Source of the DNA: Desulfocapsa sp.
GTDB taxonomy: Bacteria > Desulfobacterota > Desulfobulbia > Desulfobulbales > Desulfocapsaceae
NCBI GenBank assembly: GCA_022712895.1
Contig: JAFLJS010000037.1
Coordinates: 62,001 to 126,000, forward strand
DNA: 64,000 bases
Direction of reading: 5' to 3'
The translations under genes and the position numbers were made by a program. The notes below the pieces were generated by a model. It had not been told where the DNA came from. It searched no databases and saw only the letters and a list, made by a program, of their open reading frames with translations. Shown piece after piece: positions 32,215-42,599 of this stretch (its first letter is position 1; every line of letters begins with the position of its first letter).

Positions 32215-34794
32215 ATGAATACATCAATCAAGCTGAAACTTTCTGTGCTTTTCTTTTTTGTTATAATGTCCGTCGTCACCATTGTCCCTTCTTTTTACGA
32301 GGACACTCCTGACTGGTGGCAGAAGTATATGGCACCGGAAGGCTTGCGTTTAGGGCTTGATCTTCAGGGTGGTATGCATCTTGTCCTGCAGGTAAACCTA
32401 GATAAGGCTGAAGAAGATTCTTTAGAGCTTGCCGCCAACGAACTGAAAGACAGTCTCCGGGAAGAGGGAATCAGTGCCGTTCGCACAAAATCAGATCCGG
32501 GTGTTGTGCTCTTTACCCTGCCAAACTCCGGTGCTGTTGATACCGTCAAACGGTTGGCAAAAGATCGTTTAAAAGAAATCAATGTGAAGGTGGATGCCAA
32601 AGAAGGATCTTTCCCCAAGATTACGGTCACCTTAAAGCAATCAGAAATTGACTTTATCCGTACCCATGCCGTCGAGCAGTCCCTTGAGATTATCCGGAAT
32701 CGAATTGATCAGTTTGGTGTGGCAGAGCCTGTTATTATCCGTCAGGGCGAGGCGGAAATTGTTGTACAGCTTCCCGGTGTAAAAGATCCAAAACGTGCCT
32801 TAAAGTTGTTGGGTGAAACTGCCCAGCTTGAATTTAAACGAGTGGCCGATACTGCAGGGATCAATCTTTTTCAACTTGCCGACGAATCACTCAAAGCAGA
32901 GCAGTGGAATGGAGTGTGGACGGATCATGCAGAGGTGGTGAAGTTGAACCGTGCCCTACAGAATCGTCTGCCTGAAAATACCAGAATATATATCGAAAAA
33001 GATACCGACACCGAAACGGGTAGAGAAGTTATCCGACCTATCCTCCTCGATGAGCAGATCCTGATGACAGGGGAGATGGTGAAGAATGCACAGGTACGGA
33101 TCTCCAATCAATTTAATGAGCCATACGTTTCCATCGACTTTACCTCACGTGGAGGGCGGGTTTTTGCCAAACTCACCGAAGATAATGTAGGAAAACGTAT
33201 GGCTATTGTGTTGGATGATATCGTTCGTTCAGCACCGGTTATCCGAGAAAAAATCCTTGGTGGGTCGGCCCAGATAAGCGGAAGTTTTACCCATGAAGAT
33301 GCTGCGGATCTGGCCATTGTTCTACGTGTTGGTGCCCTTCCTGCACCCGTTGATATTATTCAGAATATGACAGTCGGTGCCAGTCTTGGACAGGATTCAA
33401 TCAACAAGGGCATGACTGCTGGTGTCTTTGGTGCTCTGATTGTCCTTGGCTTTATGGGTATCTATTACCGCTTATCCGGATTCATCGCCAACAGTGCACT
33501 TATCTTAAATATTCTCTTCCTTTTCACAGGGCTTGCCATTCTTAATGCGACTCTGACACTGCCGGGTATTGCCGGTATCATTCTTTCCATCGGTATGGCT
33601 GTTGATGCTAATGTGCTTATATTTGAACGAATGCGTGAAGAGTATGCTCTTGGCAAATCTGTAAAATCCAGTGTCGATGGAGGTTTTGGAAAAGCATTCT
33701 GGACCATTGTCGATTCCCAGGTAACAACTCTGATTACTGCCATGGCGCTCTTTATGTTTGGTACCGGCCCCATTAAGGGCTTTGCCATTACCCTTTCCTT
33801 AGGTATCATTTTTAACCTCTTCACCGCTCTTTTCTGTTCGCGACTGATGTTTGAGACCCTTTACTCTTTCCGTGTTTTGAAAAAGCTTAACTTCATGCAG
33901 TTTGTGAAGAAGCCAAGTATTGATTTTATGCGTCTTCGCAATATTGCTTTTGGAGTATCTGCTGTTCTGGTTACCATAGGGCTCATCGCCTCTATTCAGA
34001 TTGTCAGAGGCAAGGCCAATATGGGGGTTGATTTTACAGGTGGTTCTTTGCTGCAGTACAAGGCAAGTGAAGATTTTACCATGGAAGAGGTGCGAAGGGC
34101 TTTTGCTGCTGGCGGAATGAAACAGATGAACCTCCAGGAGGTTGAGGGAGAACATCGTCTGATAGTGAAGGTGAAAAAAGCATCCCATGTGGTGGTAGGT
34201 CTTGATGAGCAGATCAATAGTCTGCTTGCCAGTGAGCTGCCGGATAAAGGTTTTGTGCTTGAGAGCCAGTCTGAAATCGGCTCTTCTGTAAGTAAAGTAT
34301 TACGTAATAAAGCTATTCAAGCCGTTTTTATCTCGCTCTTTGGTGTCATTGTTTATCTGGCCATGCGTTTTGATATTCGCTTTGGACTGGCGGCTGCCGT
34401 TGCCACCTTCCACGATGTTATTGTAGTGCTTGGTATCTGTTGGCTTCTCAATGTGGAGATTACGCTGCTTATCGTAACAGCGCTTCTGACACTCGCTGGA
34501 TATTCGTTGAATGACTCAGTTGTTGTTTTTGATAGAATTCGGGAGAATATGCAAAAGGATGAGCACCATTCACTGCTTGACCAAATTAATAAAAGTATCA
34601 ATCAGGTTATGAGCCGTACCTTTGTAACATCTCTGACCACTGGCATGGTGTTGCTTGCTCTGTTCTTCCTTGGTGGCTCAGTTATCCATAACTTTTCTCT
34701 GGCACTGCTTCTCGGTGTGATAGTTGGTACCTATTCGTCCATCTTTATTGCAAGCCCGGTACTGAGTTTGTGGCCAGCTAAAAAAAATGCGTAA
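32215..34794 (+). CDS. secDF: Protein translocase SecDF fusion
   Basis: An 859-residue fusion. The SecD half (1-530) has the first membrane helix, GLRLGLDLQGGMHLVLQV, the large periplasmic domain and the GMAVDANVLIFERMREE segment; the SecF half (530-859) has NMGVDFTGGSLLQY and the matching YSLNDSVVVFDRIRENM motif. It uses the proton gradient to pull proteins through SecYEG. AGGA precedes the ATG. Its usual neighbour yajC is 22 kb away beside tgt. Confidence 0.93.
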   Translation: MNTSIKLKLSVLFFFVIMSVVTIVPSFYEDTPDWWQKYMAPEGLRLGLDLQGGMHLVLQVNLDKAEEDSLELAANELKDSLREEGISAVRTKSDPGVVLFTLPNSGAVDTVKRLAKDRLKEINVKVDAKEGSFPKITVTLKQSEIDFIRTHAVEQSLEIIRNRIDQFGVAEPVIIRQGEAEIVVQLPGVKDPKRALKLLGETAQLEFKRVADTAGINLFQLADESLKAEQWNGVWTDHAEVVKLNRALQNRLPENTRIYIEKDTDTETGREVIRPILLDEQILMTGEMVKNAQVRISNQFNEPYVSIDFTSRGGRVFAKLTEDNVGKRMAIVLDDIVRSAPVIREKILGGSAQISGSFTHEDAADLAIVLRVGALPAPVDIIQNMTVGASLGQDSINKGMTAGVFGALIVLGFMGIYYRLSGFIANSALILNILFLFTGLAILNATLTLPGIAGIILSIGMAVDANVLIFERMREEYALGKSVKSSVDGGFGKAFWTIVDSQVTTLITAMALFMFGTGPIKGFAITLSLGIIFNLFTALFCSRLMFETLYSFRVLKKLNFMQFVKKPSIDFMRLRNIAFGVSAVLVTIGLIASIQIVRGKANMGVDFTGGSLLQYKASEDFTMEEVRRAFAAGGMKQMNLQEVEGEHRLIVKVKKASHVVVGLDEQINSLLASELPDKGFVLESQSEIGSSVSKVLRNKAIQAVFISLFGVIVYLAMRFDIRFGLAAAVATFHDVIVVLGICWLLNVEITLLIVTALLTLAGYSLNDSVVVFDRIRENMQKDEHHSLLDQINKSINQVMSRTFVTSLTTGMVLLALFFLGGSVIHNFSLALLLGVIVGTYSSIFIASPVLSLWPAKKNA

Positions 34795-36163: not shown

Positions 36164-37219
36164 TTACTCCTCGCGCCCTTCATCCACTCGTTTAATTCCT
36201 TCCATTAAGAGCATCATAAAATCCCCGATTTCTGCTGCTTTCATTTCGTCAGGGCTTAATCCTGTGGTAAAGGTGTAACGCCCTTCTTTTTCTTTCAGCA
36301 TGTCAAAAATTGCAGCCTGATTAGTCACATCGTGATACTGGGCATTGATTACACAGCCCTCACGGAAAGAGACTTTGGCGTTGCCATTGGGCAGCTCAAG
36401 AGAAAGAATGCCGGTTTTCTGGTTCATGTGAAAAATCTGGAAAAGCTCAGCCGGTGGCATTTCATGAATCCAGCCGCTCATGCACGCGTCAAATATTCTA
36501 GAGCGGTGACTATTGGATACGCTTAAACGTTGTACAAGAACCTTGGCCATAAACAGTTGAAGTTCTGGGATACGATCAATGAGTCGGCAGAAAGCATCAC
36601 CCGCGATGGATAACACCTCAGTTTCCTCTATGGTTTTGACATCTGCTCCAGCTACATCTTTTCCAAGATAGCTCATCTCACCACAAATATCACCGGGTTT
36701 GAGAGTGGCGATGACAAGCGAATTGTCACTGACCACAAGTTCACCGGAAAGAATGAGGTAGAGGTAGAGCGAACTCTGCCCTTTGGTGATAAGGGTCGCG
36801 TTAGCTGTTACTTTTTCCTTTCTAAAGCATCGAACTGCTGAAGCAATTTCAGTGTCTGGGATGGCCTTGATAAGGGGGTAATCTTGAATCTCTTTCAGGA
36901 GTGCGGCATCCTCGGAATCAAGGGGGCTGACAACGGCATCAATCAATCCTTCATCGTTTGCTTTTTCTTCTGAAATCTTGGTGAATTTAATAAGTCCACT
37001 GCACCCACTACAGTTATACACTTTGTCGTCATTATCGCTGTTTGCGTTATCAAGATACTCAAAAAGTAAATTCGTCATTTCTCTAACAAGAATAAGGCAA
37101 GTAGGCTTGTTTCCAGGGCAGGAAAGTGCTTTCTCTGAGAGGGTTAGCAACTCTCCTTTAGCGTAAAGGGGACAATTGTTGTCTACCGTGATTTTGAAAT
37201 AGAGTTTAAATGAATTCAT
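36164..37219 (-). CDS. Cyclic-nucleotide-binding + DUF4388 protein
   Basis: A 351-residue soluble protein. The N-terminal 100 residues carry four or more cysteines (NCPLYAKGE, SCPGNKPTC, YNCSGCSGL) that could bind a metal. A cNMP-binding beta-barrel follows (about 125-240, with YLYLILSGELVVSD and LKPGDICGEMSYLG), then a C-terminal DUF4388/PATAN-like domain (AELFQIFHMNQKTGILSLEL). Such proteins act in two-component or gliding/pilus signalling. The start at ATG 37219 is chosen, with GTG 37237 as the alternative; neither has a good ribosome-binding site. It is divergent from the E2-like gene. Confidence 0.8.
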   Translation of the reverse strand: MNSFKLYFKITVDNNCPLYAKGELLTLSEKALSCPGNKPTCLILVREMTNLLFEYLDNANSDNDDKVYNCSGCSGLIKFTKISEEKANDEGLIDAVVSPLDSEDAALLKEIQDYPLIKAIPDTEIASAVRCFRKEKVTANATLITKGQSSLYLYLILSGELVVSDNSLVIATLKPGDICGEMSYLGKDVAGADVKTIEETEVLSIAGDAFCRLIDRIPELQLFMAKVLVQRLSVSNSHRSRIFDACMSGWIHEMPPAELFQIFHMNQKTGILSLELPNGNAKVSFREGCVINAQYHDVTNQAAIFDMLKEKEGRYTFTTGLSPDEMKAAEIGDFMMLLMEGIKRVDEGREE

Positions 37220-37368
37220 TGCGCCATAATATATCACAAAACACGTACCGTTGTAGGAGAAAGTTTTTTTTTATCTTAAGATTAAAAAAAAATTTTGAAT
37301 TCCCAGAAGTTACTGCTATACTTCATCTATCTAACCCTACACACTAGTCTATTAGAAAATGATTTACT

Positions 37369-39798
37369 ATGAGCAAAACCACGAATCAACTCGAAGATGT
37401 TTTTCAAGAAGTCAGTGATTACTTTGCCTCCGTCTCAGGGGTGACTGTCACTCCCGGTGAGGGCTCTCCTCCTGAACAATATACCATTACATATAAATTG
37501 AGTGGTGTCTGCAAGGAAAATAATGGGGAGGTATACAGCTGTGATACTCATGTGATCTCCCTTTCTCTCCCTTTCGGGTTCCCTCACTTCCCGCCAAACT
37601 GCCTTCCGGAGAGTCCCACATTTCATCCCGATTTTGACTCATCTGCCATCTGCATTGGTGATGTGTGGGAGAAAGACAAATCCGTTGTTCAGTTGATCCT
37701 TCATATTGGTCGTATGGTTGCGGGTGAAACATTTTCTGAATCCAACGTATTTAATGAAGAGGCGGCAGAATGGTATAAAGCAAATAGTGATAAGTTGCCA
37801 TTTGACAGTGCAGATTTTCAACATATTTCGCCTCCTCTGGTAGAAGAGGATGACGAAGATTTTGATACCATTGATACGCTGGATGATGATGCCTTTGGCG
37901 AACCTTTTTCTCTGGAAACAGATGAGCCGCAAGAAGCGTCGGTGGATGTTGACCGTTTACAGCTCATGGCAAAGCAGAAACGCTTTAATACCCTTTACAG
38001 AGAGCTTGGTAAGATAACGAAACAGTTTCCAGGGCGTGAAACACTCGAAGCAGATACTCGGAATGCAATCGATATCAGTACAAACCTCTTCCGTGAAGGA
38101 GAAGAGCTGGAGTACCAGGGAAAACTAAGAGAAGCTCTGGAGAAATTTGACGCTATTGAAAACATGGTTTCTGATTACCCTCAGATTCAAGAAGCAAAGA
38201 GTAGAGTCCAGCAGGCGTTTGATCTTCTAGGCGATTGGGTGAATGGTGGGCCGGATTCCAGTGAGAATCTGATTGTAGAAGATACCTTTGTTGATTCAGC
38301 TGCCGTAACAGATAACGACGAGGCTATAGAAAATAGCGAAGGGAAGCGGACTTTTTTTGAAGATAAAAAGGCCGCAAGTAAGAAATGGATCGTTACGGCT
38401 CTGGGTCTTGGAGTCGTAGCCTTGTTTGTAACCTTGATTATTTCCTATTTTTCACTTAGTTCAAGCCTTGAGAAAGCAGAGCAGCGTTATGGAGAGTGCC
38501 AGGTTTTGCTGGACAAAAATAATTTTATTGTTGCCCAACGAAAATGTGAGGAAGCCCTGGTTCTGATTTCTGAAGTACGATTGGTCAAGCAGAATGCAAA
38601 AGAGCAGCTTACCGCTAAAATTCAGTCTATTCTCCAGTCACCTAAGCTCAAGCAAGGATTGGATGGCAAGGTGAAGTTCGAAGGGGTGTATATCACCAGA
38701 TCTGCCAAAGAGTTAATTATTACGTTTAAAGAGACAAAAACATATGGAGATGCATTCTTTGAAGAACAGCGCTGGGATGAAGCAGCGCTCAGCTATACAA
38801 AAGCCTTAATGACGGCAAAAAGTTCTGATGCCATAGACGATAGCTTGTTGGCAGAAATCAGGAAACGGATGCCGCGGGCGCAGTTTAATGGGATTATGCT
38901 GTCTGGTGAAAAGGCACTGGCAAGCTCAGACTGGTATGGAGCCACAGAGCATTTCGGCTCAGCCCTTCAGTTAGCCAAAGAAAACCCAAATGTTTTGCCT
39001 GAAGATATTACACAGCTGGAGTTGCTCTCAAATCAGGCTGAATTCAATGTGTTGCGTGATGAAGGGCATTCGGCTTTCAAGGCTGGTAACTGGGCTGTTG
39101 CACTAACACGTTATCAAGGTGCACTGGAATTGGTTAAGAAACTCGGTCTGGCAAAGTCGGATACTATAACCAGTCTTCGTGAAAATATTGTTAGAACAAA
39201 TATCTACATGGCAATTGAGAAGGGGAAGAAAGCATTTTCTGCCTCAAACTGGGATGAAGTTATTGGCCAGTATGAAAAGGCTATTGTTTTACTGGAGGAG
39301 AATTCGGAACTGTTAAGCAGTATTAACACCCAGGCAAGTGGTGAAAAGCTCTCCCGAATAATGCTCCATGCTGAAATTATTCAGGGTAAACAGTCGCTGG
39401 CTAAATTTCTGAAGGATGAAGGGCTTGAGCAGGCAGTGGGTAAGATGCAGGAAATTCATCAAATAATATCCCGTAGCAAGTTTGCTGATATTTCAGAATT
39501 TCGAATTCTTATGGATGAGTTAACTGTTGATATCGACGCAACCAGAGAGAAGATACAGATCCGTAAACAGTCGGCATACCTGACTGAAAATTACGAGAAA
39601 CTTTTTCTTGCGCATTATCCAGCTACATCAGGTTCGATACTGAGTTCTCCGAAGGTGGAATACCTTAAGAACGTAGGCAATAAACTGTTGTTCAGAATGC
39701 AGTGTACGGAAAAGGCCGGTGGCAGGCCCCTTCGTTTACAGATGGATTATCTCTATTCTCCTGCCAGTGGGACTTGGCAGTTCTATACTGGTAACTAG
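37369..39798 (+). CDS. Membrane protein with ubiquitin-E2-like domain and TPR-like repeats
   Basis: An 809-residue protein. Residues 1-140 match the E2 ubiquitin-conjugating fold: LPFGFPHFPPNCLP (the PxxYPxxPP-like motif), FHPDFD at 85-90 (HPN position, here HPD), SSAICIGDVW with the candidate catalytic Cys95 seven residues after HPD, and VFNEEAAEWYKAN at the C-terminal helices. An acidic linker (about 159-190), a helical region, a single transmembrane helix (about 340-362) and a C-terminal region with TPR-like repeats (for example WDEAALSYTKAL and WAVALTRYQGAL) follow. Topology would put the E2 part in the cytoplasm. No E1, JAB peptidase or ubiquitin-like protein is nearby. Whether it conjugates anything is unknown. 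Confidence 0.8.
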   Translation: MSKTTNQLEDVFQEVSDYFASVSGVTVTPGEGSPPEQYTITYKLSGVCKENNGEVYSCDTHVISLSLPFGFPHFPPNCLPESPTFHPDFDSSAICIGDVWEKDKSVVQLILHIGRMVAGETFSESNVFNEEAAEWYKANSDKLPFDSADFQHISPPLVEEDDEDFDTIDTLDDDAFGEPFSLETDEPQEASVDVDRLQLMAKQKRFNTLYRELGKITKQFPGRETLEADTRNAIDISTNLFREGEELEYQGKLREALEKFDAIENMVSDYPQIQEAKSRVQQAFDLLGDWVNGGPDSSENLIVEDTFVDSAAVTDNDEAIENSEGKRTFFEDKKAASKKWIVTALGLGVVALFVTLIISYFSLSSSLEKAEQRYGECQVLLDKNNFIVAQRKCEEALVLISEVRLVKQNAKEQLTAKIQSILQSPKLKQGLDGKVKFEGVYITRSAKELIITFKETKTYGDAFFEEQRWDEAALSYTKALMTAKSSDAIDDSLLAEIRKRMPRAQFNGIMLSGEKALASSDWYGATEHFGSALQLAKENPNVLPEDITQLELLSNQAEFNVLRDEGHSAFKAGNWAVALTRYQGALELVKKLGLAKSDTITSLRENIVRTNIYMAIEKGKKAFSASNWDEVIGQYEKAIVLLEENSELLSSINTQASGEKLSRIMLHAEIIQGKQSLAKFLKDEGLEQAVGKMQEIHQIISRSKFADISEFRILMDELTVDIDATREKIQIRKQSAYLTENYEKLFLAHYPATSGSILSSPKVEYLKNVGNKLLFRMQCTEKAGGRPLRLQMDYLYSPASGTWQFYTGN

Positions 39799-39862: not shown

Positions 39863-40111
39863 TCAGTGGTGATGATGGTGGTGCCCGTGTGTGTCGTCTG
39901 TTGCAGCGCCGCCTGCGGCAGTAAGCGCTTTTTCCAGATACTTGCTCACTTCTTCCATGGCTGTAACAGCAGCCTTTAGATTAGCTTCCACCTCTTTGGC
40001 GCCATTTTCCTGGCCAGCAAGTGTCGCCCATTTGTTGCACTCTTCTGCGTGGCCACGATTGTGCTCAATCCAGTGGGGTAACAGTACCCGTAACTTTTCC
40101 AGTTCGTTCAT
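39863..40111 (-). CDS. Small protein with a natural C-terminal six-histidine tail
   Basis: An 82-residue protein starting at the ATG 40111, with AGGAG upstream. MNELEKLRVLLPHWIEHNRGHAEECNKW, cut here as LLPHWIEHN and HAEECNKW, is a His/Cys-rich segment, a helix follows, and the sequence ends THGHHHHHH. The tail and the neighbouring CooT suggest a nickel or cobalt store or carrier. It is the last gene of the kdsD-cooT-this operon, 22 nt after cooT. The tail would bind nickel resin, so it must not be confused with an engineered tag. Confidence 0.8.
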   Translation of the reverse strand: MNELEKLRVLLPHWIEHNRGHAEECNKWATLAGQENGAKEVEANLKAAVTAMEEVSKYLEKALTAAGGAATDDTHGHHHHHH

Positions 40112-40133
40112 GTTTGTTCTCCTGCTATGGAAA

Positions 40134-40319
40134 TTAACCCAGAATGACTTTGCCACCCAGGAAATCTATGGATTGCACGCTTACATTCGGAACAAATTTG
40201 GGATCTTCAAAAAAAGTGCTTACTTCAACCCCATTCTCTTTCACATCGAGTCGGGTAACGCTTTCCATTACCAACTCTTCCTGATCGTTCTCAGTTTTTA
40301 CAACGCTCATTTGACACAT
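40134..40319 (-). CDS. CooT-family nickel-binding protein
   Basis: A 61-residue protein starting MCQMSVV, where the second-residue cysteine is the CooT nickel ligand. The remaining small beta-fold (LVMESVTRLDVKENGVEV, SVQSIDFLGGKVIL) matches the CooT family, first known as a nickel accessory factor of CO dehydrogenase. No CO dehydrogenase lies in this window, so it probably serves another nickel enzyme. It is 9 nt after the KdsD-type gene, and no symbol is given because the pathway is not shown here. Confidence 0.85.
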   Translation of the reverse strand: MCQMSVVKTENDQEELVMESVTRLDVKENGVEVSTFFEDPKFVPNVSVQSIDFLGGKVILG

Positions 40320-41300: not shown

Positions 41301-41453
41301 GATTGCATTCCTTTGGTGGGCTGTGGTAACACCCTGTTCACTGCTAAAATATGAATTCTGTAATGTGTCGGCAACATATAAATGCTGTATAGTAATCTTA
41401 TGTATGATTTTATGGGTATCATAGTAAGCAAATATAATAGAGAACCCGTCAGG

Positions 41454-42599
41454 ATGTCATTAAAAAAACGTCTAAACAAAATCGTGTCATGTATCTGTTT
41501 GCTGATTTCTTTGTCGTTTGCCTGTAGTGCTGACGCTCTTGAACCACAGGAGATCCTTGTCCTCGCCAATGGTCAGGAAAGAGCCGGGGTGGCGCTGGCA
41601 CGTTTTTATATGCAGCAGCGAAACATTCCTCCTGAAAATCTATTGCTCATTCAAACTGCGGTCAATGAAGAGATTCCCCGTTATTATTATGACGATGAAA
41701 TAGCCGGGCCAGTACGCAATTTTTTGGCAGACAATCCTACCATCAGTTGTCTGCTCCTCTTTTACGGTATACCATTGCGAATCGACGGGCATGCGCTGAC
41801 AAATGAAAATCTTAAGGAGAAAAAGAGTCATGTCGCTCGTCGTCAACAAGATCCCATGGCTTCTGTTGATTCAGAGTTAAGCCTGGTACGAGTACCGGGG
41901 CATCCCATAGCAGGCTGGGTGCAAAACCCATATTTTCTGCAATTTCAAACACAAAAAACAGAATACAGAAAAGCACAGGTACTGATGGTTGCTCGGCTTG
42001 ACGGACCGGATGAGCAGACGGTGCGTCGTTTGATTGTTGACAGTATCGAGGTTGAAAAAAAAGGCCTGACTGGCACTGCCTATTTTGATGCTCGCTGGCC
42101 ACAACCGGAAAATACGAAAAAACTGCAGGGGTATGCATTATATGATAATGCTATTCATGAAGCGGCAAGAATCACGAAAAAAGTGGTGCCCACGATTATC
42201 GACGAGCAGTCGAGTTTGTTTCAGGCAGGCGATGCTGCCGATGCTATTCTCTATTGCGGCTGGTATAGCCATGCCAAATATGTAGATGCTTTTGACTGGC
42301 AACAGGGAGCAGTCGCTTACCATATTGCCAGTAGTGAATGTACCACACTTAAAAAAGAGGGAAGTCAGGTCTGGTGCAAGCGTCTACTGGAGGAAGGGGT
42401 GGCCGCCACCATCGGTCCGGTCGGAGAACCCTATGTGCAGGCATTTCCGTTTCCACAGCTTTTTTTCGGTCTGCTCCTCGATGGTGATTTTACTCTGGCT
42501 GAGGCATACTTTTTAAGCCTTCCGTATATCTCCTGGAAAATGGTGCTGATTGGTGATCCACTCTATCAACCGTTTCGGGCGCGTGGCATATTGCCCTAA
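41454..42599 (+). CDS. Exported TIGR03790-family protein of unknown function
   Basis: A 381-residue protein with a signal peptide (cleavage near ACSADA-LEPQ). The N-terminal IPPENLLLIQTAVNEEI and CLLLFYGIPLRID segments and the C-terminal KMVLIGDPLYQPF match the TIGR03790 family, whose role is unknown. The ATG at 41454 is chosen because it opens the signal peptide; upstream in-frame ATGs lack support and its ribosome-binding site is weak. Its stop overlaps the stop of the convergent selenoprotein gene by four bases. Confidence 0.8.
   Translation: MSLKKRLNKIVSCICLLISLSFACSADALEPQEILVLANGQERAGVALARFYMQQRNIPPENLLLIQTAVNEEIPRYYYDDEIAGPVRNFLADNPTISCLLLFYGIPLRIDGHALTNENLKEKKSHVARRQQDPMASVDSELSLVRVPGHPIAGWVQNPYFLQFQTQKTEYRKAQVLMVARLDGPDEQTVRRLIVDSIEVEKKGLTGTAYFDARWPQPENTKKLQGYALYDNAIHEAARITKKVVPTIIDEQSSLFQAGDAADAILYCGWYSHAKYVDAFDWQQGAVAYHIASSECTTLKKEGSQVWCKRLLEEGVAATIGPVGEPYVQAFPFPQLFFGLLLDGDFTLAEAYFLSLPYISWKMVLIGDPLYQPFRARGILP

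Follow-up and report, generated by a model that had tools for sequence, protein, structure and literature searches.

The window analysed here is the whole stretch of 64,000 nucleotides from Desulfocapsa sp. (contig JAFLJS010000037.1), which lies within a 3.68-Mb genome. An open reading frame (ORF) at 37369-39798 on the forward strand, with an ATG start and exactly the bounds given in a first-pass annotation of this DNA, encodes an 809-residue protein. By structure prediction its N-terminal domain has the UBC fold of ubiquitin-conjugating (E2) enzymes, and this is followed by one membrane helix and a large domain of tetratricopeptide repeats (TPRs). The protein is conserved across the order Desulfobulbales, and the Cys at the E2 active-site position is replaceable in its relatives. 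The parts of the gene are as follows.

37369..39798, + strand: gene of the 809-residue E2-fold, membrane-helix and TPR protein; an ORF found across the family and the order
37369..37806, + strand: E2 (UBC) fold domain, residues 1-146, by AlphaFold, Foldseek/VIA and the Pfam family UQ_con
37624..37632, + strand: HPD motif, residues 86-88; H and P in 165/165 aligned rows, D in 158/165
37651..37653, + strand: Cys95, the E2 active-site position; Cys in 92/165 rows
37822..37938, + strand: acidic, predicted disordered linker, residues 152-190; predicted local distance difference test (pLDDT) score under 50
37948..38229, + strand: helical TPR-like stretch, predicted on the cytoplasmic side, residues 194-287, from the full-length model
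38386..38454, + strand: membrane helix, about residues 340-362, from hydrophobicity and the model; N-terminus inside by the positive-inside rule
38455..39588, + strand: far-side helical TPR domain, residues 363-740, from a TPR_2 match and helices in the model
39652..39783, + strand: small C-terminal beta domain, residues 762-805, from the full-length model

The E2 fold and the layout of the membrane protein

The AlphaFold model of the E2 domain, made from 54 sequences, has a pLDDT of 87.6 and a predicted template modelling (pTM) score of 0.83. It consists of a helix at 3-19, four strands, and helices at 97-103, 106-117 and 130-138. In a Foldseek search with this model all 50 matches listed are entries with E2 enzymes (best expect value (E) 4.2e-6), and the best Protein Data Bank (PDB) match in the VIA structural alignment is UBE2S, with Z 13.9 and a root-mean-square deviation of 2.4 over 128 residues. 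At the level of sequence, UQ_con matches residues 42-141 with E 7e-5 and 22.9 bits when the whole protein is the query and with E 8.7e-6 and 25.8 bits when the isolated domain is used, both scores being under the curated cut-off of 27 bits. No other Pfam family matches the E2 domain at E up to 0.01. Of the 54 sequences aligned in A2, which include the window protein, 53 individually match UQ_con, with a best E of 1.3e-8, and two distant relatives pass the cut-off (30.4 and 29.1 bits). A phmmer search against PDB sequences found UBE2C (E 1.7e-4). The window protein is the sole UQ_con match in its own genome. The first-pass annotation had recognised an E2-like domain in the letters and proposed comparing a predicted fold with E2 enzymes; the prediction returned the UBC fold, and the HPD motif at 86-88, Cys95, Trp100 and the C-terminal helices (106-117 and 130-138 in the model) are all at the places it had named.

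The full-length model has a pLDDT of 82.0 and a pTM of 0.46, and the relative placement of its parts is unreliable. It shows disorder after residue 287 to about residue 342, and then a helix at 340-382 that contains the membrane segment. All 30 full-length rows, that of the window protein among them, have a single hydrophobic peak, which in the window protein falls at residues 341-359. The TPR_2 match (E 1.6e-8, 34.4 bits) is above its cut-off of 27. Since an excess of Lys and Arg precedes the membrane helix in 28 of the 30 rows (one tie, one opposite), the E2 domain most likely sits on the cytoplasmic side. Thus, of the earlier picture of a membrane-tethered E2 with TPRs on the far side, the fold and the one-helix layout stand as described, and the topology is a prediction from the positive-inside rule. 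In the fold search with the full-length model the matches were all taken up by the E2 domain, and the TPR and C-terminal parts were barely probed. The C-terminal domain is apparently doubled in several relatives of about 900 residues (e.g., L058, L060 and L063), where a second match to query residues 724-808 is seen.

Position 95, relatives and ubiquitin-type machinery

Some part of the protein is matched in 85 of the 93 genomes of the family, which covers all 18 of its 18 genera. By a hand count 83 of these 93 genomes have the E2 domain, as do 70 genomes of a second family, and over the order the domain occurs in 170 of the 257 genomes; the class-level search covered the same 257 genomes. In a sample of the phylum (395 genomes) there are 12 matches, two of them outside the order. 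One of these, G281, is the sole genome of its order and encodes a 1061-residue protein whose E2 domain is without the Cys and which also has repeats and a hydrophobic segment. The other, G585, is the one positive among the 46 genomes of its order; its locus (L165, 8436-9536, minus strand) encodes a 367-residue E2-fold protein with the Cys and a zinc-ribbon-like stretch, without a TPR match. Shorter paralogues with open frames of 533-553 residues (L160, L161 and L220-L223, groups g6 and g7) carry Pro or Arg at position 95.

Conservation within the domain was read from 165 fetched rows (the window itself plus the top 80 named loci and another 84 without a name), which are a subset of all matches and include some organisms twice. 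Pro72, Pro76, His86 and Pro87 are invariant in 165/165 rows, and Trp100 is present in 164. The third residue of the HPD motif, column 88, is Asp in 158 rows, Glu in three, Ala in two and Asn in two, and the oxyanion Asn of the HPN motif is not kept. Position 95 is Cys in 92 rows, Arg in 55, Lys in seven, Pro in three, Ser, His and Ala in two each, and Tyr and Asp in one each; Cys is therefore absent from 73/165 rows while the fold motifs persist. A second residue, Cys78, accompanies Cys95 in 91 of the 92 rows, and 17 further rows have Cys78 but no Cys95. The acidic first helix, whose mean net charge over the 165 rows is -1.7, is unlike the basic first helix with which active E2s bind the activating enzyme (E1).

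By family, Cys occupies position 95 in 0/50 fetched rows of f6 and in 7/16 of f13. A quick tree of 154 rows, from which the position-95 column, identical rows and rows shorter than 120 residues had been left out, requires at least 7 changes between Cys and non-Cys and 11 changes of letter, with gain and loss indistinguishable. One clade of 63 rows is entirely non-Cys. Within the Cys-bearing family f1 there are four separate non-Cys branches (L099 with L224, L113, L106 and L070), with joining-node values of 96, 56, 78 and 81, and on these the residue is Ser/Arg, Ser, His or Tyr. Named strains are among the first three, and L070, like other records, is metagenomic. Among the Cys-less records are the named strains Desulforhopalus vacuolatus DSM 9700 (L106), Desulfoprunum benzoelyticum DSM 28570 (L109) and Desulfopila aestuarii DSM 18488 (L113), and misassembly was on these grounds rejected as the origin of the Cys-less state. 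The 30 closest loci all keep Cys95, and no part of the protein is better conserved in them than the E2 motifs. The first-pass annotation had tied its E2 assignment to conservation of Cys95 in close homologues. This conservation holds among the closest loci, but it breaks down on the four f1 branches and, further out, in every fetched f6 row, where the fold motifs are retained.

The earlier observation that no E1 or JAB gene lies nearby holds genome-wide. The genome has three ThiF homologues, all on contigs other than that of the window. By eye, one lies with aldehyde-ferredoxin-oxidoreductase-like and MoaD-like ORFs, one within a TcdA-like ORF, and one with ThiS- and ThiG-like ORFs; these appear to be cofactor or tRNA contexts, and no dedicated E1 is seen among them. 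Judged by sequence, one of the three could in principle also serve the E2-fold protein. Prok-JAB gave no match in this genome, and the same search was positive in 8 of 14 control genomes. Two MoaD/ThiS-like ORFs were noted by eye beside ThiF homologues, the genome not having been searched by family for ubiquitin-like proteins (Ubls). A relation to the E2s of Bil operons or of cyclic-oligonucleotide-based anti-phage signalling systems (CBASS) was ruled out, as there is no operon of that kind, Prok-JAB has no match in the genome and PADLOC gives none to the E2-fold protein. A plasmid origin of the gene was likewise ruled out, the E2 domain having no tblastn match in 72,556 plasmid records.

The divergently encoded partner

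Directly upstream of the E2 gene, on the opposite strand, is a gene that we refer to as the partner. It encodes a protein with an N-terminal four-Cys domain, a cyclic nucleotide monophosphate (cNMP)-binding domain and a DUF4388 domain, laid out as follows.

36164..37222, - strand: divergent partner gene, 352 residues from the conserved start; the mechanical ORF extends to 37237
36953..37222, - strand: N-terminal four-Cys domain; C19, C44, C73 and C76 of alignment A4
36572..36817, - strand: cNMP-binding domain, missing from partners of about 210 residues
36179..36478, - strand: DUF4388 domain, by domain match
37223..37368, no strand: stretch separating both divergent genes, between the partner start and the E2 gene

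The partner is adjacent to the E2 gene, upstream and on the opposite strand, in 76 of the 99 loci with neighbourhoods. The 99 include two loci on one contig (L104 and L159) and two from one genome (L042 and L043), and the 76 are what is left of 79 upstream sequences after removal of three Sua5-like ones (L148, L149 and L153). The usual wider order is secDF, a CxxCxxCC protein, a HAD phosphatase, the partner, the E2 gene and a SIS/CBS gene. In 10 loci the partner is retained where six other common clusters are all absent within six genes, two of these loci being L104 and L159 on their single contig. The question of whether neighbours or domain order recur in relatives, raised in the first-pass annotation, thus has a positive answer: the domain order is conserved, and so is this one neighbour.

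The four Cys of the N-terminal domain are invariant in all 28 rows of alignment A4. These rows were picked by the pattern C[PA][LIV]Y, which favours the first Cys; 13 of the 76 partner sequences fall outside the pattern and were left out, and by eye the first Cys is still there. The partners in f6, and some of those in f13, are about 200-240 residues long and lack a cNMP domain. Over 257 genomes a hand count found both the E2 domain and the partner domain in 164, only the E2 domain in 6, only the partner domain in 13 and neither in 74, a co-presence that overstates the link because partner paralogues are counted, absence follows families, and the E limits differ (0.001 and 1e-5). A suggested kinship of the N-terminal domain with TIGR04076 was not reported by NCBIfam at E up to 1. 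The partner was also considered as a defence protein and set aside: its best match to PADLOC effector models (TIR, Pycsar-type) has E 3e-14, and it covers residues 110-248 only, confined to the cNMP-binding domain.

Three paralogues of the partner (L232, L233 and L234) are also encoded in the genome and, by eye, share its four-Cys, cNMP and DUF4388 layout; L233 adjoins an ORF rich in CxxCH motifs. A PilZ-like ORF (L238, 5101-5439, minus strand; by eye) stands next to the partner gene of genome G031, in which the E2 domain was not found. Three other genes of the window were noted. At 32215-34794 (+) SecD and SecF are fused into a protein of 859 residues, and in 71/99 loci the gene cluster of this fusion is no more than six genes away from the E2 gene. 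At 39863-40156 (-) a 97-residue ORF without a Pfam or NCBIfam match has a natural six-histidine end (DDTHGHHHHHH). At 41382-42599 (+) there is a TIGR03790 family protein (E 1.6e-85).

A proposed docking role and its alternatives

We suggest that the E2 fold is a non-catalytic docking module of an inner-membrane protein, which would bind a cytoplasmic signalling partner and couple its signal to the periplasmic TPRs. We give this reading about an even chance. It is based on the predicted fold, on motifs that persist where position 95 changes, on the ThiF contexts and the missing Prok-JAB, on the acidic first helix, on the adjacency of the partner, which outlasts the other common neighbours in 10 loci, and on genome G004, where the E2 half and the partner are both absent from the locus and the membrane-TPR half is still there. 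The UBC fold would be a protein-binding head on the cytoplasmic face, with a role comparable to that of eukaryotic ubiquitin E2 variant (UEV) or RWD domains. The flexible acidic linker and the one membrane helix would connect this head to the large periplasmic TPR domain, which would do the main structural work. The head would most likely bind the divergently encoded protein or one of its paralogues, and such binding may couple an internal signal, either a cyclic nucleotide or a redox or metal state, to the TPR assembly in the periplasm, in that presumed direction. The transmembrane modification or signalling device of the first-pass annotation is thus partly supported: the observation on which it was built is confirmed, modification finds no support (Cys95 is replaceable, and no dedicated E1 or JAB was found), and signalling is probably the likelier half.

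Several findings weigh against a docking role. Cys95 is present in 18/18 loci of the same genus (L005-L022, own genome included), and it is kept in 61 of the 62 loci with a long adjacent partner; the Cys may therefore have some role in the genus of the window protein. Since 20 of the 99 loci have enough upstream sequence and no adjacent partner (L160 and L161 of these being paralogue loci), an adjacent partner is not needed for keeping the E2 domain. At the three loci L148, L149 and L153 the neighbour of an intact E2 domain is a gene that by eye is Sua5-like. In genome G004, which is described below, the E2 half and the adjacent partner may have been lost in one single deletion.

One alternative is an active E2-like enzyme, in which Cys95 would carry a MoaD/ThiS-type Ubl charged by a MoeB/ThiF-type enzyme, with transfer to the partner or to membrane targets and with Cys-less relatives as degenerate forms or UEV partners. 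It draws on the canonical spacing of Cys95 and the HP motif, on the presence of the Cys in 92/165 rows and in 61/62 long-partner loci, and on the three ThiF homologues and two MoaD/ThiS-like ORFs (by eye) of the genome. However, the 50 fetched f6 rows are all without the Cys and have the remaining domain intact, the ThiF homologues sit, by eye, in the gene contexts of other pathways, Prok-JAB is missing, the first helix is acidic, and Asp replaces the Asn of HPN in 158/165 rows. We regard such an enzyme as very unlikely. Conjugating activity conserved in the family is unlikely, judging from sequence, because the Cys is replaceable, the ThiF homologues by eye lie in other gene contexts, Prok-JAB is absent and the first helix is acidic; Cys-bearing members, the window protein included, could still have such activity. 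A variant of the docking role keeps chemistry without an E1. A whole order would here use the E2 fold, outside any ubiquitin system, as the cytoplasmic head of a transmembrane receptor; where Cys95 is kept, a regulated disulfide or thioester with the partner might act as a relay that carries an internal cyclic-nucleotide or redox signal across the membrane to the TPRs, and the Arg and Lys lineages would have a non-covalent, charge-based dock. This variant seems to us improbable.

Rather than in Ubl transfer, Cys95 could also act together with the four-Cys domain of the partner in redox chemistry of thiols or in metal chemistry, so that the head would be a redox-sensing dock and the Cys would have gone wherever the partner shed its cNMP domain or disappeared altogether. 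The raw counts are suggestive of such an association, with Cys95 in 61/62 loci with a long adjacent partner, in 2/11 with a short one and in 10/20 with none adjacent, six loci having been set aside; both short-partner loci with Cys are L104 and L159 of the one contig. The four invariant Cys of the partner and the pairing of Cys78 with Cys95 in 91/92 rows point the same way. Against this, once the tree was taken into account the association of Cys with partner type was no longer significant (8 independent pairs, on average 3.1 concordant and 0.1 opposite, median p 0.25), and there are counter-examples. Outside the tabulated loci, G226 and G227 have partner frames of 359 and 356 residues and yet Arg at position 95 (L175 and L174). 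L113 has a long partner and Ser. Moreover, Cys78 is kept in the 17 rows that have no Cys95. We consider the redox or metal reading rather unlikely. A structural reading, in which the E2 fold mainly supports the protein (e.g., by RWD-like dimerisation), the adjacency of the partner is due to chance or a shared promoter, and the TPR domain is the scaffold of an envelope machine, is to our mind similarly doubtful. It would agree with genome G004. There the order is SIS/CBS gene, 503-residue ORF, HAD phosphatase, CxxCxxCC and secDF genes, the ORF at the same locus consists of the membrane helix, repeats and C-terminal domain only, and neither the E2 domain nor the partner domain was found in the genome. 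The far-side half is thus able to persist when the E2 half is gone. It would also agree with the persistence of E2 domains in several lineages without an adjacent partner. It fits less well with the 10 loci in which the partner stays without the other common neighbours and with the conservation of the protein over 30 loci, which is highest in the E2 motifs.

Though E2 enzymes (PF00179; nearest by solved fold are UBE2S, UBE2C and Ubc9) share with the window protein the UBC fold, the PP and HP motifs, the Trp and the Cys, the window protein differs in having HPD in place of HPN, a fusion to a membrane helix and TPRs, and no dedicated E1 or JAB found in its genome. Its Cys is replaceable in relatives, and its identity to E2 entries is 12-21% in the 50 structural alignments listed. 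It is thus an E2-fold protein that falls outside the family of active E2 enzymes. UEV and RWD domains, such as those of Mms2/Ube2V2 and TSG101, are non-catalytic E2 folds. They are alike in having an E2 fold with a dispensable catalytic Cys and unlike in that the window protein retains the Cys and no ubiquitin system was found with it. CBASS E2s have a bacterial E2 fold with the Cys and are encoded beside E1, Ubl or JAB genes. BilB of BilABCD is a bacterial E2 with a catalytic Cys (PMC11354881); BilB and the CBASS E2s thus resemble the window protein in fold and Cys and differ in being encoded with E1, Ubl or JAB. Cys-less E2-like folds are known in bacterial polyUbl operons with E1 and JAB (Iyer et al. 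2006, PMC1779556). There the inactive E2/RWD-like domains adjoin polyUbl, E1 and JAB genes, whereas here none adjoin and the layout is that of a membrane helix with TPRs. In the open-licence PMC literature we found no E2 fold in a membrane-TPR protein outside ubiquitin-like operons, and nothing that joins Desulfobulb- organisms and ubiquitin-conjugating proteins.

An E2 fold is usually taken to signal ubiquitin-type conjugation. In these bacteria it is widespread, and no dedicated partners of that kind were found in the one genome examined, which calls for caution in annotating such proteins as ubiquitin-conjugating enzymes. The natural replacements of the catalytic Cys in close relatives, some of them cultured, make an E2 role without ubiquitin directly testable. 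In addition, the four-Cys domain and DUF4388, neither of them characterised, are now linked to a membrane TPR protein. The carriers are a group of sulfur-cycling bacteria.

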